Below the pieces are notes generated by a model that made no database searches, had not been told where the DNA came from, and worked only from the letters and a program-made list of their open reading frames with translations. Of a stretch of 64,000 nucleotides of DNA, positions 10,995-33,925 are shown piece after piece. Position 1 is the first letter of the stretch. Each line of letters begins with the position of its first letter. Location: the NCBI GenBank assembly GCA_020152595.1, contig JAIGNY010001807.1:601001-665000 (forward strand). The letters run 5' to 3'. The DNA comes from Chiridota heheva. Its lineage: Eukaryota; Echinodermata; Holothuroidea; Apodida; Chiridotidae. A program made the translations under genes and the position numbers.

Positions 10995-13900
10995 AAGGAT
11001 GATAACCTGTGGTAGGGATTGCTAGCATCTCAATAGGATGATAACCTGTGTTAGGGATTGCTAGCATCTCGGTAGGATGATAACCTGTGTTAGGGATTGC
11101 TAGCATCTCAATAGGATGATAACTAGTGTTAAGGATTGCTAGCATCTCAATAGGATGATAACCTGTGTTAGGGATTGCTAGCATCTCAATTGAATCATAA
11201 CCTGTGTTAGAGATTGATAGCATCTCAATAAGATGATAACCTGTGGTAGGGATTGCTAGCATCTCAATAGGATGATAACCTGTGTTAGGGATTGCTAGCA
11301 TCTCAGTAGAATGATAACTAGTGTTAAGGATTGCTAGCATCTCAATAAGATGATAACCTGTGTTAGGGATTGCTAGCATCTCAATTGAATCATAACCTGT
11401 GTTAGAGATTGGTAGCATCTCGAAAAGATGATAACCTGTGGTAGGGATTGCTAGCATCTCAATAGGATGATAACCTGTGCTAGGGATTGCTAGCATCTCA
11501 ATGGAATCATAACCTGTGTTAGAGATTGGTAGCATCTCAATAAGATGATAACCTGTGGTAGGGATTGCTAGCATCTCAATAGGATGATAACTGGTGTTAA
11601 GGATTGCTAGCATCTCAATAAGATGATGACCTCTGGAGGGATTGCTAGCATCTCAATTGAATCATAACCTGTGTTAGAGATTGCTAGCATCTCAATAGGA
11701 TGATAACCTGTGTTAAAGATTGCTAGCATTTCAATAAGATGATAACCAGTGTTAGGGATTGCTAGCATCTCAATAGGATGATAACCAGTGTAAGGGATTG
11801 CTAGCATCTCAATAGGATGATAACCTGTGTTAGGGATTGCTAGCATCTCAATAGGATGATAGCCAGTGTTAGGGATTGCTAGCATCTCAATAGGATGATA
11901 ACTAGTGTTAAGGATTGCTAGCATCTCAATAAGATGACCTGTGTGAGGGATTGCTAGCATTTCAATAGGATGATAACCTGTGTTAGGGATTGCTAGCATC
12001 TCAATAGGACGATAACCAGTGTTAGGGATTGCTAGCATCTCAATAGGATGATAACCTGTGTTAGGGATTGCTAGCATCTCAATAGGATGATAACCTGTGT
12101 TAGGGATTGCTAACATCTCAATAGGATGATAACCTGTGTTAGGTATTGCTAGCATCTCAATAGGATGATAACCAGTGTTAAGGATTGCTAGCATCTCAAT
12201 AGGATGATAACCAGTGTTAAGGATTGCTGGCATCTCAATAGGATGATAACGTGTGTTCAGGATTGCTAGCATCTTAATAGGATGATAACCTGTGTTAGGG
12301 ATTGCTAGCATCTCAATAGGATGATAACCAGTGTTAGGGATCGCTAGCATCTCAATAGGATAACCTAGCTGTGTTAGGGATTTGCTAGCATCTCAATAGG
12401 ATGATAACCTGTGTTAGGGATTGCTAGCATCTCAATTGAATCATAACCTGTGTTAGAGATTGGTAGCATCTCAATAAGATGATAACCTGTGGGAGGGATT
12501 GCTAGCATCTCAATAGGATGATAACCAGTGTAAGGGATTGCTAGCATCTCAATAGGATGATAACCTGTGTTAGGGATTGCTAGCATCTCAATAGGATGAT
12601 AGCCAGTGTTAGGGATTGCTAGCATCTCAATAGGATGATAACTAGTGTTAAGGATTGCTAGCATCTCAATAAGATGACCTGTGTGAGGGATTGCTAGCAT
12701 CTCAATAGGATGATAACCTGTGTTAGGGATTGCTAGCATCTCAATAGGACGATAACCAGTGTTAGGGATTGCTAGCATCTCAATAGGATGATAACCTGTG
12801 TTAGGGATTGCTAGCATCTCAATAGGATGATAACCTGTGTTAGGGATTGCTAACATCTCAATAGGATGATAACCTGTGTTAGGGATTGCTAGCATCTCAA
12901 TAGAATGATAACTAGTGTTAAGGATTGCTAGCATCTCAATAGGATGATAACTAGTGTTAAGGATTGCTAGCATCTCAATAAGATGATGACCTGTGTGAGG
13001 GATTGCTAGCATCTCAATAGGATGATAACCAGTGTTAGGAAGTGCTAGCATCTCAATAGGATGATAACCTGTGTTAGGGATTGCTAGCATCTCAATAGGA
13101 TGATAACCTGTGTTAGGGATTGCTAACATCTCAATAAGATGATAACCTGTTGGGGATTGCTAGCATCTCAATAGGATGATAACTAGTGTTAAGGATTGCT
13201 AGCATCTCAATAGGATGATAACCAGTGTCAAGAATTGCTAGCATCTCAATAGGATGATAACCAGTGTCAAGAATTGCTAGCATCTCAATAGAAGGATAAC
13301 CTGTGTTAGGGATTGCTAGCATCTCAACAGAATCATAACCTGTGTTAGAGATTGCTAGCATATCAATAGGATGATAACCAGTGTTAGGGATTGCTAGCAT
13401 CTCAATAGGATGATAACCTGTGTTAGGGATTGCTAGCATCTCAACAGAATCATAACCTGTGTTAGAGATTGCTAGTATATCAATAGGACGATAACCAGTG
13501 GTAGGGATTGCTAGCTTCTCAATAGGATGATAACCAGTGTTAGGGATTGCTAGCATCTCAATAGGATGATAACTAGTGTTAAGGATTGCTAGCATCTCAA
13601 TAAGATGATGACCTGTGTGAGGGATTGCTAGCATCTCAATTGAATCATAACCTGTGTTAGAGATTGCTAGCATCTCAATAGGATGATAACCTGTGTTAGG
13701 GATTGCTTAAATCTCAATAAGATGATAACGTGTGTTCAGGATTGCTAGCATCTCAATAGGATGATAACCTGTGTTAGGGATTGCTAGCATCTCAATAGGA
13801 TGATAACAGTGTTAGGTATTGCTAGCATCTCAATAGGATGATAACCAGTGTTAAGGATTGCTTGCATCTCAATAGAATGTTAACAGTGTTAAGGATTGCT

Positions 13901-14805
13901 AGCATCTCAATAGGATGGTAACCAGTGTTAGGTATTGCTAGCATCTCAATAGGATGATAACCAGTGTTAAGGATTGCTAGCATCTCAATAGGATGATAAC
14001 CAGTGTTAAGGATTGCTGGCATCTCAATAGGATGATAACGTGTGTTCAGGATTGCTAGCATCTTAATAGGATGATAACCTGTGTTAGGGATTGCTAGCAT
14101 CTCAATAGGATGATAACCTGTGTTAGGGATTGCTAGCATCTCAATAGGATAATAACCTGTGTGAGGTATTGCTAGCATCTCAATAGGATGATAACCAGTG
14201 TTAAGGATTGCTAGCATCTCAATAGGATGATAACCAGTGTTAAGGATTGCTAGCATCTCAATGGGATGATAACCAGTGTCAAGAATTGCTAGCATCTCAA
14301 TAGAATGATAACCTGTGTTAGGGATTGCTAGCATCTCAACAGAATCATAACCTGTGTTAGAGATTGCTAGTATATCAATAGGACGATAACTAGTGGTAGG
14401 GATTGCTAGCATCTCAACAGAATCATAACCTGTGTTAGAGATTGCTAGCATATCAATAGGATGATAACCAGTGTTAGGGATTGCTAGCATCTTAATAGGA
14501 TGATAACCAGTGTTAGGGATTGCTAGCATCTCAATAGGATGATTTCCAGTGTTAAGGATTGCTAGCATCTTAATAGGATAACCTGTGTTAGGGATTTGCT
14601 AGCATCTCAATAGGATGATAACCAGTGTTAGGGATTGCTAGCATCTCTATAGGATTATAACCAGTGTTAAGATTGCTAGCATCTTAATAGGATAATCTGT
14701 GTTAGGGATTTGCTAGCATCTCAATAGGATGATGACCTGTGTTAGGGATTGCTAGCATCTCAATAGGATGATAAACTGTATTAGGGATTGCTAGCATCTC
14801 AATTC
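10995..14805. repeat. 39-bp minisatellite, about 98 units
   Basis: A 3.8-kb tandem array. The 39-bp unit contains GGATTGCTAGCATCTCAATA followed by GGATGATAACCTGTGTTAG, with a GCTAGC palindrome. Because 39 is a multiple of 3 and the minus strand lacks stops, it reads there as repeats of MLAIPNTGYHPIE and variants (ILNTSYHPIE, ISNTGYDSIE, IPTTGYHLIE). The minus frame is broken near 11610, 12360, 13130, 13680-13820 and 14570 by small indels, and no conserved start or flanking domain is seen. I treat it as non-coding. Larger blocks are duplicated with offsets of about 740 and 895 bp. Confidence 0.97.
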
Positions 14806-26711: not shown

Positions 26712-27245
26712 CCTAAAAAAACCTTGCCGAGGTGAATCTTGACCCAATTTTTTTTTGCCCAAGGTGAATCTTTGCCTAAAAAACATATTGCAGGTGGGTG
26801 AATCTTTGCCTTAAAAATATTGCAGGTGGGTGAATCTTTGCCTAAAAAAATATTGCAGGTGGGTGAATCTTTGCCTAAAAAAATATTGCAGGTGGATGAA
26901 TCTTGGCCTACAAAAATATTGCAGGTGGGTGAATCTTTGCCTAAAAAATATTGGAGGTAAGTGAATCTTTGCCTAAAAAAAATATTGCAGGTGGGTGCAT
27001 CTTTGCCTAAAAAAATATTGCAGGTGGGTGAATCTTTGCCTAAAAAATATTGCAGGTGGGTGAATCTTTGCCTAAAAAATATTGCAGGTGTGTGAATCTT
27101 TGGCTAAAATATATTGCCTAAAAAAAATATTGCAGGTGGGTGCATCTTTGCCTAAAAAAATATTGCAGGTGGTTGAATCTTTGCCTAAAAAATATTGCAG
27201 GTGCGTGAATCTTTGGCTAAAATATATTGCAGGTGAATCTTGACC
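26712..27245. repeat. About 33-bp tandem repeat, roughly 15 copies
   Basis: Units combine GTGAATCTTTGCC, a run of 5-8 A, and ATATTGCAGGTGG. Variation is mostly in the A-run length. A larger block (GGTGGGTGCATCTTTGCC to GGCTAAAATATATTGC) occurs twice, which shows a second level of duplication. Confidence 0.95.
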
Positions 27246-27689
27246 TAACAAAATTTCTGAAAAAGGTGAATGCTTGAGGGAGGTCTGTGAAGATGCTGTT
27301 TGACCGCTGCATAATATTTATGAACTTAGTGTTTATTACTTAAATTTCAGGAAAAGTTGTGATTTTTATAGCACTTTCAAAGCTTTCTGTGGAGGGAGAG
27401 CTTAATCACTACTCAATTTCTTTACATGTAGTTGTTCCATGAGAACAATAAAGGCTATGATATCATTTCCAGTTAAACAGATTTATAATGACAGTCATTA
27501 CAAACAAAACTCAAGATGCACATAAATATGCACTATTTTTCTATCACTTGAAACCAAAAAAGTAACTTTGTTTCAGCTTTTAAAAGGTCTATGTACCTAT
27601 GTACTTTCAATGAGACAGTGAATGAATCTTAGACTGCATTCAAATGAAGACATCATGTCTTTCTCATGAATTATGTAAAATTTCATCAA
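27246..27689. other. Intronic spacer
   Basis: No recognisable feature. Lies between the 33-bp array and the Tx1-like element. Confidence 0.55.
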
Positions 27690-28161
27690 GAATGTGCCAA
27701 GAAAAAATTCATGAGGGATGTGATTAATTTTGCTGATCCTCCGAGGAGAACAAGAGGGAACGATGTTAACATTCTCTGTCTTTCACCATGACCAATCTTC
27801 TCTTACATGCCTCCTAAATGCATTATTTCTGCAAATTGATGTTTTCTGACAAAAATATCAAGATTTGTATAATGTAATACAAAATATCTCTCAATGAGAG
27901 AGGGCGTCATAATTCTTATACCTAAAAAAAACAAATCTCCACTCTATCAAAAGAATTGGTGTCCAATATTTTGCTCAATTGTGATTACAAAATTCTCACT
28001 GCTTGTCTTGCAAACCCGCCTCAAAAATGTTTTACCTTTTAGCAATTTTGAATAATCAAACTGGTTTTATAAAAGGAAGATTCATTGGCGAAAACAACGT
28101 CAAGTTTGAGATATAATTGAGCATTGTAATTTTAAAGACATCAGAACTGCTGTTTTTTGCC
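27690..28161 (+). mobile_element. Tx1/L1-like retrotransposon, RT fingers up to motif A
   Basis: Frameshifted reverse-transcriptase start on the + strand. It shows REGVIILIPKKNKSPLY near 27900-27950, LLNCDYKILTACLAN near 27975-28015, NNQTGFIKGRFIGEN near 28050-28095, and DIIEHCNFKDIRTAVF at 28110-28158. These are the conserved blocks before the first catalytic aspartate in L1/Tx1-type elements. The sequence enters motif A (ADFERAFD) at 28159-28183, where it becomes the first unit of the 22-bp minisatellite. The left boundary is approximate. Confidence 0.8.
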
Positions 28162-30388
28162 GATTTTGAGAGGGCATTTGGCTGATTTTGAGAGGGCATT
28201 TGACTGATTTTGAGAGGGCATTTGACTGATTTTGAGAGAGCATTTGACTGATTTTGAGAGGGCATTTGGCTGATTTTGAGAGGGCATTTGACTGATTTCG
28301 AGAGGGCACTTGTCTGATTTTGAGAGGGCATTTGGCTGATTTTGAGAGGGCATTTGACTGATTTTGAGAGGGCTTTTGACTGATTTTGAGAGGGCATTTG
28401 GCTGATTTTGAGAGGGCATTTGGCTGATTTTGAGAGGGCATTTGACTGATTTTGAGAGGGCATTTGGCTGATTTTGAGAGGGCATTTGTCTGATTTTGAG
28501 AGGGCAATTTGACTGATTTTGAGAGGGCATTTGGCTGATTTTGAGAGGGCATTTGACTGATTTTGAGAGGGCATTTGACTGTTTTTGAGAGGGCATTTGT
28601 TTGATTTTGAGAGGGCATTTGTTTGATTTTGAGAGGGCATTTGTCTGATTTTGAGAGGGCATTTGACTGAATTTGAGAGGGCATTTGACTGATTTTGAGA
28701 GGGCATTTGTCTGATTTTGAGAGGGCATTTGGCTGATTTTGTGAGAGGGCATTTGGCTGTTTTTGAGAGGGCATTTGACTGAATTTGAGAGGGCATTTGG
28801 CTGATTTTGAGAGGGCATTTGACTGAATTTGAGAGGGCATTTGACTGATTTTGAGAGGGCATTTGACTGATTTTGAGAGGGCATTTGTTTGATTTTGAAA
28901 GGGCATTTGACTGATTTTGAGAGGGCATTTGGCTGATTTTGAGAGGGCATTTGACTGAATTTGAGAGGGCATTTGGCTGATTTTGAGAGGGCATTTGGCT
29001 GATTTTGAGAGGGCATTTGACTGATTTTGAGAGGGCATTTGACTGATTTTGAGAGGGCATTTGACTGAATTTGAGAGGGCATTTGACTGATTTTGAGAGG
29101 GCATTTGTCTGATTTTGAGAGGGCATTTGTCTGATTTTGAGAGGGCATTTGACTGAATTTGAGAGGGCATTTGACTGATTTTGAGAGGGCATTTGACTGA
29201 TTTTGAAAGGGCATTTGACTGATTTTGAGAGGGCATTTGGCTGATTTTGAGAGGGCATTTGACTGAATTTGAGAGAGCATTTGGCTGATTTTGAGAGGGC
29301 ATTTGACTGATTTTGAGAGGGCATTTGACTGATTTTGAGAGGGCATTTGACTGATTTTGAGAGGGCTTTTGGCTGATTTTGAGAGGGCATTTGACTGATT
29401 TTGAAAGGGCATTTGACTGATTTTGAGAGGGCATTTGGCTGATTTTGTGAGAGGGCATTTGGCTGATTTTGAGAGGGCATTTGACTGATTTTGAAAGGGC
29501 ATTTGACTGATTTTGAGAGGGCATTTGGCTGATTTTGAGAGGGCATTTGACTGAATTTGAGAGAGCATTTGGCTGATTTTGAGAGGGCATTTGGCTGATT
29601 TTGAGAGGGCATTTGACTGATTTTGAGAGGGCATTTGACTGATTTTGAGAGGGCATTTGACTGAATTTGAGAGGGCATTTGACTGATTTTGAGAGGGCAT
29701 TTGTCTGATTTTGAGAGGGCATTTGTCTGATTTTGAGAGGGCATTTGGCTGATTTTGTGAGAGGGCATTTGACTGAATTTGAGAGGGCATTTGACTGATT
29801 TTGAGAGGGCATTTGACTGATTTTGAGAGGGCATTTGACTGATTTTGAGAGGGCATTTGGCTGATTTTGAGAGGGCATTTGACTGATTTTGAGGAGGGCA
29901 TTTGGCTGATTTTGAGGGCATTTGGCTGATTTTGAGAGGGCATTTGACTGATTTTGAGAGGGCATTTGACTGATTTTGAAAGGGCATTTGACTGATTTTG
30001 AGAGGGCATTTGGCTGATTTTGAGAGGGCATTTGACTGAATTTGAGAGGGCATTTGGCTGATTTTGAGAGGGCATTTGGCTGATTTTGAGAGGGCATTTG
30101 ACTGATTTTGAGAGGGCATTTGACTGATTTTGAGAGGGCATTTGACTGAATTTGAGAGGGCATTTGACTGATTTTGAGAGGGCATTTGTCTGATTTTGAG
30201 AGGGCATTTGTCTGATTTTGAGAGGGCATTTGGCTGATTTTGTGAGAGGGCATTTGGCTGTTTTTGAGAGGACATTTGACTGATTTTGAGAGGGCATTTG
30301 ACTGATTTTGAGAGGACATTTGACTGATTTTGAGAGGGCATTTGACTGATTTTGAGAGGGCATTTGACTGATTTTGAGAGGGCATTTG
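28162..30388. repeat. 22-bp minisatellite, about 101 units, born from RT motif A
   Basis: The unit is GATTTTGAGAGGGCATTTG plus a 3-nt variable step (ACT, GCT, TCT or TTT). On the + strand its 19-nt core spells the RT motif A codons DFERAF plus the first base of the next aspartate codon. At the left it follows GCC (Ala), and at the right it runs into GAC-TCT-GTT-GAT-TGG (DSVDW), so the flanks are the two halves of one catalytic motif. Variants such as TGAATTTGAGAG, TTTTGAAAGG and TTTTGTGAGAGG recur in blocks, which implies block duplication. The minus strand has no stops in any frame of the unit, which creates three overlapping spurious frames of 740-786 codons. Confidence 0.97.
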
Positions 30389-31810
30389 ACTCTGTTGATT
30401 GGAATTTTATTTTCAAGTCACTTTAATGCTTCAATTTTGGTCTTCAGATTAAAAAATGGATTACTACTAATTATACAAAAGATCAAGAGTACTGTCATTA
30501 ATAATGGAAATTGGTCGGAATTCTTTAATCTATTTCGGGGTGTTCATCAAGGATGCCCATTGCCACCATATCTCTTTCTTATTTGCTATGAAATTCTTGC
30601 CATAAATATATGTGAGAATGCATGTGAGAATTGAAAAGTTTGTTAAAATTATCGCCGAGTTCTCTTAGTATTCAGGGCTCGCAATTAACTATGATAAGTG
30701 CTTTATAAAATGTATTGGGCCTTGTAGATTTTACAACACTACTTTTTGTAATCATTTACGGTTACTTTGGACAGATCTAGTTTTATATTTGGGGATAAAC
30801 ATTACCACCAATATTGATGAACATGTTTCTTTAAACTTTAATCCCCAAATCAACAAGTTAAAAAAATGTTTAAATTGTTGCAAAGTCAGAAAACTTTCAC
30901 TTAGGGAAATATTACCATTCTAAAAAGCCTCGCAATACCTAAAACTACATACTGTCTCTCAATTTTACCAAATCCAAGTCGTCTATTTTTTCAAAGTGTG
31001 CAAAATATTTTGTTTCGGTTTTTGTGGGAGGCTAAAACCGGACAAAATTTACAGGAATTCTATGTGTAATTTGTGGGGCAGTTTGCGCATGCCATGTGTC
31101 AATCGTTCAAAGCTGCCTGGGTTAAATGCTTTCTATAAGGTGATAGGGATTGATTACTCCTGAATAAGAATTTGGTGGGGTTTTCTGTTTGACTGTAATT
31201 TAAAGGCTGGTGACAATAGTTTTACCAACAATTTCAAGGCTTTTAATAATGATATTTTTGAGGCTTGGTTTTCATGTAAAGGTTTTGAACCTTCTTCAAA
31301 AAAGGAAGTTTTATGCCAAACTTTATGGTTTAATTCATACATTAAGATTGATAATAAATTTGAAGATTGATAATAAAGTCTTATTTTGGAATTATTGGTA
31401 TCACAAAGGAGTTAAAAGTTGTGTCAGATCTTTGTCAAGAGAACAATTATTTTTTTTAATTAAAATTAGAGACTCCCTTATTTGTAATATGTGCATTTGT
31501 TTTGAGCAGACGATTATTCATCTGTTTTCCTCTTGTTGTAAGACGAATCTCTTTTAGAAAGAGGTCCTGTCTTGGCTAAAAGTAAAAAACGTTTTGAATT
31601 TTGACCCTTGTTTATTGGATGTACTACTTGGCATTGTAACCCATAATGTAAACAATGATGTCTTATTAAATGCCATATTTCTGCTTCCAAACACTACCTT
31701 TTCTCTCGCATGTACTCTACTGCAAGTTTTTCTTCATAAACTATGCAGCCTCTATGATCTGGAATGCCAGATCTCTTTATCAAAAAATATGATTGGTGTC
31801 AACAAATGGA
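30389..31810 (+). mobile_element. Tx1/L1-like retrotransposon, 3' continuation
   Basis: Continues from motif A with SVDWNFIFKSL at 30391-30425, IKKWITTNYTKDQ, and FNLFRGVHQGCPLPPYLFLI near 30525-30585 (RT box normally GVRQGCPLSPYLF). It then runs through a decayed domain to an RT-associated C-terminus (ETILHLF-like QTIIHLFSSC near 31510, then WLKVKNVLNF). Frames 30374-30634, 31210-31557 and 31594-31833 are pieces of this one dead ORF. The right end is cut by I-like element B near 31810-31835. Confidence 0.8.
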
Positions 31811-33925
31811 ACTCCCTTTCCCCATTACTTTAGGAGAGGCCATCATCACTCCCATCCCCAAGCCTAACAAAGACAGGTCCATTCCCACCAACTACTGGCC
31901 CATCGCTCTCACTTCCTGCCTTTGCAAGATTATGGAACGTATGGTCAACTACAGGCTCTGCTGGTACCTTGAGAAGAACTTCATCCTATCCCCCTCTCAA
32001 AATGGTTTCAGGAGAAACTGGAACTGCCTGGACCATGTCCTCAAACTTGACACATATGTACGTGAAGCCTTCATCAGAAATCACCATGCCATCTCCATCT
32101 TCCTCGAACTCGAAAAGGCCTTCAACACCACCTGGCGGTACAGTAACATCAAGGACCTACACTCCTCCCCACCTTCATTCAGAACTTTCTTCATACCTGC
32201 CATTTCAGGGTACGTATCGGTAACACCTACTTCCAAAGGTACACCCAACACCTGGGTGTCCCCCAAGGCAGTATCCTCTCCCTCACTCTCTTCATTCTCA
32301 CTTCCCCGGAATCACTCTCAATTCTAAGATCTCCTATCTCCCCCACATCAACATCCTCAAAACCAACTGTCACAAAATCTTCAATCTCCTCAGTGTCCTC
32401 TCCAGCACTGACTGGAGAGCCAATCATCTCACCCTGCTCACCTTATATTGCTCCCTCCTCAAGTCCAAGCTGGACTACAGCAGCTTCATCTACGCCTCCA
32501 ACCACAAACTTTACTTGAGGCACCTCAAGGTTACTGAAAACACTGCCACAAAGCTCTGCCTTGGCACCACCCATACCACCACCATCACCAGTCTCCACAT
32601 AGAGGCCAATGAACTTCCCTTTGACCTTAGGTGCACCAGGACTGGCCTCTCCTTCACTTTTCATATCCTCACCGATCCGCGGAACCCTTACTTCCATTCC
32701 ATTCACTCCCCCTCCTTCTCCAACCTCTTAAGCCTCGACCTTTCAGGATCCGGATGCACTCTCACTTCACCAAAGCCAACATCAACATTTTCTCGATTGC
32801 CTGGCACACTATCCCTCCCACGCTCACCTGGGTTATCAATTCCCCCAAGGTTTTCCTCCTATACGAAAGCCCTCAACAACCCTGCCTTCTTTTGCTCCAA
32901 ATACTGCCAACTCAGTAGACATTTCCACAACTTCTCTGTCCTCTTCACCAACGGCTCCACACGAGAAGGCTCCCCTGTAGCTGCCATCGCTTGTCCCGGC
33001 CTCACCCTCTCCTCAAGGTTACCCATTCGAGCCTTAAATCTACTCTGCTAAAGGAAAGGCCATTCTCGTGGCCTTAAACTTTGTTGAACTCTCTTTTTAT
33101 ACCCACTTAGTCATCTTCCCTGACTCTAAATCCGTTCTCACTGGCATCCTCAACATGCTCTGGACCAACCCACTCATCCTATAAATCCTCAATAAACTTT
33201 ACGCTCTTTCTTAGGGAAAAATATTATCTTTTTTTGGATCCTAGCAACGTCAACATTCCCGGCAACGAGAGAGCTGACAGAGCCGCCAGCAACCCTCTGT
33301 CAAATCACATCTCTCCTTTTCCTATCCCGCACTCAGAGCTCTGTTTCTCTACTTCCAGCTACCTCAGTAAGACCTGGCAAGACTCTTGGAATCTCAAAAC
33401 CAGTAACAAACTTCACATTGTCAATCCAAAGTCGGGACCAACTTCCCCCTGCATGGTCACAACTGCAGGGAGGATGTTGTTGTCACCCATATCTGCCTCG
33501 GCCACACCTTTCTCACCCACTTTCACCAACTTTCCAGCTCCCCTGCTCCTCTCTTCCCTACATGCAACATTCAACACCGATCTCTCTATCAAGCATATCC
33601 TCTTAACCTGTCCTATATACCTGAACTCCAGATCACACCTCTCCATCTCAATTTCAGATCTTTTCAAGAACAATCCTACCTCCAACTTCATCGCCTTTCT
33701 CCGCAACAGCAATTTATTCCACCTGATTTAAACCTCCCTTTGCTTCCCTTCTCTGCCTCACCTTCATTTTATTACCTTAACGTCTTTCCCTTATCCACCT
33801 TCTCTCTCTCCTTCCCTCTCTTTCTTCTCTGTCCTAACTCAAGCACCTAAGTTTTTATCACCCTCTTGGCACATTTGACTCTGATTGTCGCGGTGCCATT
33901 AAACATCAACAAACTAAACCAAACC
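31811..33925 (+). mobile_element. I-like non-LTR retrotransposon B
   Basis: Same family as element A. RT starts near 31830: EAIITPIPKPNKDRSIPTNY, PIALTSCLCKIMERMVN, FRRNWNCLDHVL and LELEKAFNTTWRY near 32105-32140. The RT core with the YVDD box is deleted between about 32290 and 32330, and the sequence resumes with LLKSKLDYSSFIYAS near 32455. Ribonuclease H follows at about 32930-33300 (FTNGSTREG, where the first catalytic Asp of DGS is Asn; then PDSKSVL and NIPGNERADRAA). A C-terminal zinc-type segment with SIKHILLTCPIYLNSR lies near 33580-33630. The 3' tail ends TTGTCGCGGTGCCATTAA with a CAAACTAAACCAAACC end. The deletion, frameshifts and D-to-N change show it is dead. Confidence 0.85.

Follow-up and report, generated by a model that had tools for sequence, protein, structure and literature searches.

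How does a tandem array come to begin at an active-site codon of a reverse transcriptase (RT), and does its position there carry any meaning? The question is raised by a minisatellite of about 2.2 kb in the holothurian Chiridota heheva, found in a 64,000-nucleotide stretch of contig JAIGNY010001807.1 (positions 601,001 to 665,000), hereafter called the window. Coordinates are those of the window unless stated otherwise, and the array and the parts of its host element are given on the forward strand. The original prediction, made from the sequence alone, described the array as grown out of the catalytic motif A of a retrotransposon RT.

The array occupies positions 28162-30391 and was detected by TRF with period 22, 101.0 copies, 93% matches, a score of 3831 and the consensus GATTTTGAGAGGGCATTTGACT, whose seed in motif A reads DFERAFD. 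Parsing into units likewise gave 101, comprising 94 units of 22 bp, four of 24 bp, two of 23 bp and one of 20 bp. The predicted number of about 101 repeats of a 22-bp unit is confirmed by both counts; the predicted start at 28162 is also exact, and the predicted end at 30388 falls 3 bp short of the end given by TRF. A total of 21 unit types are present, the commonest being GATTTTGAGAGGGCATTTGACT with 39 of the 101 units. The main variable site is position 20, with A in 56, G in 25 and T in 13 of the 94 units of 22 bp. An 11-unit block (units 34-44) is copied exactly at units 83-93, and blocks of five, seven and eight units recur at other spacings, which indicates that the array grew partly by block duplication. 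The 22 bp correspond to seven codons plus one nucleotide and not, as had been described, to motif A codons followed by a 3-nt step. The frame thus shifts with each unit, and translation begun at the Asp codon runs into a stop straight after the first seven residues. The array is therefore non-coding, and a coding reading of it was rejected.

The left flank of the array reads ...QTGFIKGRFIGEN... and ...FFADFERAF, whereas the last unit (30370-30391) runs on into the right flank, as seen both in translation (DFERAFDSVDW) and in alignment with other copies of the element. These copies came from a search of the same genome with positions 27000-28400, the left side of the array, as query, in which 40 of 364 candidates were scored and at least ten other loci matching the LINE part were obtained. 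All ten sister loci were taken with 5 kb each for alignment; N bases make up 2800 of the 5001 positions in L010, 701 in L011 and 400 in L018. Every one of the ten aligns to the left flank, with 76.6-86.5% identity in the main piece, and every one aligns to the right flank. When the two flanks of the window are joined at one unit, they align straight across motif A with all ten sisters, and no insertion or deletion from the start of motif A to TTGATTGG exceeds 1 nt. The flanks thus join at motif A as the original prediction had expected, here against copies from the same genome in place of consensus elements, and its claim that both belong to a single RT is borne out. The sequence of L011 across the empty site is GATTTTGAAAAGGCGTTTGACTCCGTTGATTGG. 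The unit aligns with motif A in 10/10 copies, in agreement with the predicted seeding by, and growth inside, this motif, and the alignment shows no array at motif A in any of the ten sister loci. The two flanks adjoin each other in a single L1-type LINE RT, and the array lies within a single transposable element (TE) copy, continuing into the LINE on both sides.

The identity of this LINE was examined by domain and structure searches. The Pfam domain RVT_1 was found in three of four sister peptides (E-values 8.8e-10, 9.9e-9 and 3.5e-10), and no Pfam match was obtained for the fourth, an upstream piece of L010. Only one of ten broken pieces from the window itself matched RVT_1, with an E-value of 0.035 that lies under the curated cut-off, so that the assignment to RT rests on the sister copies. 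A 101-aa piece of L011 compared with solved structures had its best match in human L1 ORF2p (8sxt_A, 5.4e-8), R2 proteins following at 0.0039 or worse. By this comparison of one piece, with no Tx1 element among the listed matches, the family is placed in the L1 group, with L1 ORF2p as its closest solved RT; the Tx1 label used in the original prediction is a candidate placement among the clades of that group. The family possesses motif A and YADD, as seen from DFEKAFDSVDW in L011 and QYADDS in L012. In the alignment of the L011 peptide (L011:1210-1512) to residues 559-658 of 8sxt_A, the Asp of DFEKAFD falls on Asp600 of human L1 ORF2p, with the residue counted along the alignment. We take Asp600 to be the catalytic Asp of motif A. 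The array accordingly begins at an active-site codon, the Asp codon of the first unit being positions 28162-28164.

The copy that hosts the array is a dead, decayed fragment, truncated at both ends and devoid of YADD. Its left part, RT sequence upstream of motif A (27888-28161), matches all ten sisters but is frameshifted and contains stops, the left-flank frame ending in a stop after GENNVKFEI. Similarity to all ten begins at 27888-27903, and the sisters stay alike farther upstream among themselves, which shows that the window copy is 5'-truncated. LINE 5' truncation usually occurs at insertion. The right part (30392-31817), covering the RT sequence downstream of motif A together with what follows it, again matches all ten sisters and again carries frameshifts and stops. 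The match reaches query positions 1424-1450 in seven of the ten, and is shorter in L010, L012 and L015. The window copy ends at about 31817, whereas four sisters used as queries match other sisters for about 220-310 bp farther, so its 3' end is missing. Alignment to the sisters further revealed two deletions. At 30622-30631 about 86 bp are lost, the stretch that in L012 encodes QYADDS (motif C); among the six sisters given for this region it is present though altered in some, with L013 retaining the first part only. The second deletion, at 31452-31453, removes about 375-390 bp relative to L009, L011, L016 and L017. As the copy now stands, with both ends and YADD gone, no working active site is altered by the array.

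Other repeats and RT sequence surround the fragment. Just upstream lies a 32-bp array (GGTGAATCTTTGCCTAAAAAAATATTGCAGGTG) at 26763-27254, whose right end (about 27206-27315) is 76-88% similar to at least 29 other places; it is apparently a member of a dispersed family of repeats, unlike the 22-bp array. A second RT frame at 31758-32327 (Pfam RVT_1, 3.3e-9), by eye not part of the LINE that holds the array, has a Pfam match beginning about 40 bp or less from the break of the fragment at about 31817. The window also contains a 39-bp array at 10996-14803 with 98 copies and 88% matches by TRF, larger than the 22-bp array. Tandem arrays of period 7 or more make up 18.4% of the window (1-64000), as against 0-12% of the ten 5-kb sister loci; such bases are absent in L009, L010, L014, L015 and L016 and amount to 49-598 bp in the other five. 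A long minisatellite is therefore not unusual here. For sister loci, array positions were given for arrays of at least 150 bp, found in L012 and L018. The array in L012 (1870-2067) has a 19-bp unit, by eye partly self-complementary, and is located where the LINE match ends; another reading frame, RT-like by eye, comes after it. It was considered as a parallel case of seeding from a LINE and set aside, the unit appearing by eye not to be derived from the LINE.

From these observations, all made in one genome, we regard it as highly probable that the array is a non-coding, single-locus minisatellite that arose in place within one decayed fragment of an L1-group LINE, and that most likely hit the motif by chance. 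In this one copy, which had probably gained private base changes by that time, a 22-bp segment of the sequence coding for motif A would have been duplicated. The array would then have expanded to about 101 units through unequal exchange or replication slippage, a process that would have included duplications of blocks of many units, as in the exactly repeated block of eleven. The order of these events, the repair or slippage route and the absence of function are what we infer. No intermediate carrying few units was seen among the sister copies, which counts against the scheme, as does the lack of microhomology at the 22-bp junction. A more general reading, in which tandem duplication has a hotspot at motif A in this LINE family and further copies in this or related genomes bear independent arrays at the same codons, appears highly unlikely to us.

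The units differ by 3.4% from their consensus, or by 1.6% when position 20 is left out (94 units of 22 bp, with the seven units of other lengths excluded), and the left flank differs from the sisters by 13.5-23.4%. Position 11 is G in all 94 units, while the ten sisters have A in six, C in two, T in one and G in one. Position 15 is A in 92 units and T in two, and in the sisters it is G in nine and A in one. Comparison of these bases suggests that the host copy possessed changes of its own before the array started. However, L018 has the G of the array at position 11 and L015 has its A at position 15; this sharing, together with the variation among sisters at position 11, makes the case for an array postdating the insertion weaker, and the changes at the two positions may be subfamily variation. 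Turnover within arrays also removes differences, and the order of events is likely rather than proven. The array might instead have formed during retrotransposition, if the RT slipped or changed templates at its own motif A, and have grown later, after insertion. In PMC3389668 retrotransposition is put forward as a possible starting point of TE-derived repeats, and empty sister copies are what an origin at or after this insertion would give. The base changes that separate the units from most sisters fit a later start somewhat better, and differences among units are far below those among copies, with the reservation that older ones could have been erased by turnover. We consider a start during retrotransposition rather unlikely, and duplication in the already inserted copy remains the preferred reading.

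As the trigger, the original prediction had proposed that the GATT opening motif A slipped against the GATT in GTTGATTGG. Both GATT repeats do exist, 27 bp apart, and offer a microhomology of 4 nt. Slippage between them would however produce units of 27 bp containing CTGTT, and none of the 101 units is that long, unit lengths being just 20, 22, 23 and 24 bp; the proposal could be rescued by a loss of 5 bp before expansion, but we find it most improbable. At the junction of the observed 22-bp phase the exact microhomology is 0 nt, and the best value for block starts within 12 bp is 3 nt. A fraction of 0.499 of all 22-bp blocks of the element have 0 nt as well, so the site is not special in this respect, and microhomology was discarded as a marker of the seeding site. 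Candidate routes for the seeding step are end joining with fill-in, template switching, and slippage with a later change of boundary. For TE-derived repeats in general, the postulated mechanisms account for only 6% of cases (PMC3389668).

When the 1.1-Gb genome was searched for a 35-nt pattern built from a dimer of the unit, with up to three mismatches allowed, 93 matches were obtained, all of which are located in the array (G000:C1796:629168-631388), and the reversed control gave none. The array is thus single-locus for this pattern at up to three mismatches, a pattern that is blind to arrays built from sequence like that of L011 or L012 (three differences per unit). The same satellite elsewhere without RT flanks, named in the original prediction as the finding that would speak against it, did not appear in this search. 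Insertion of a pre-existing satellite into the RT gene could draw on the richness of the window in minisatellites noted above. This reading is nonetheless scarcely credible, since the dimer matches are confined to one locus, the unit corresponds to motif A of the LINE itself, and all ten sisters show the flanks meeting at exactly one unit.

The placement of the array over the active-site codon is most likely a matter of chance. In a LINE a few kb long, such an event may strike any stretch of 22 bp, and we infer that a hit on any of several conserved motifs would have looked equally striking. That the array is selected or functional, for instance as a domesticated repeat of the RT active site, has nothing but its striking location in its favour and can be dismissed as having a negligible chance of being right, given a 22-bp unit out of frame with a stop after the first unit and a host copy that has lost YADD and both of its ends.

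Repeats of this kind in the human genome have been surveyed by Ahmed and Liang in 2012. According to that survey (PMC3389668), there are at least 7,276 human TE-derived repeats, representing 23% of minisatellites and satellites; 5,747 of their 5,932 clusters are single-locus, and growth is by local duplication. The array in C. heheva resembles them in that its unit comes from part of a single TE copy at one locus, and in its local growth and its start at or after insertion (PMC3389668). It differs in its host and in the origin of the segment from the coding region of a LINE RT, and its 101 units exceed the copy numbers quoted for human repeats in the same text (PMC3389668). Satellites from LINE ORF2 are also tabulated in PMC9659126, with PROsat and Pvc 20 traced to LINE ORF2 and chicken HinfI to CR1 ORF2 and 3'-UTR. 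These three share with our array a derivation from LINE ORF2 sequence, but they are presented there as satellite DNA families (PMC9659126), whereas here we have a single-locus minisatellite with a 22-bp unit. The foldback transposon Tetris, in connection with a Drosophila virilis satellite, similarly builds tandem repeats from transposon sequence; its source is a DNA transposon and not a LINE, and it is described as emerging satellite DNA (PMC4079207).

Among the titles and abstract openings of the listed literature, no minisatellite seeded by RT motif codons was found, which is weak evidence of absence. The novelty implied by the original prediction is overstated, because single-locus minisatellites inside TEs have been described in bulk and satellites from LINE ORF2 have been tabulated (PMC3389668 and PMC9659126, respectively). 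The array is a clear further example of an ordinary, already described process, and it tells nothing new about reverse transcriptase or retrotransposon function. Its value lies in being a clean and well-anchored example of the birth of a minisatellite, in which ten sister copies from the same genome still show the single-unit state.
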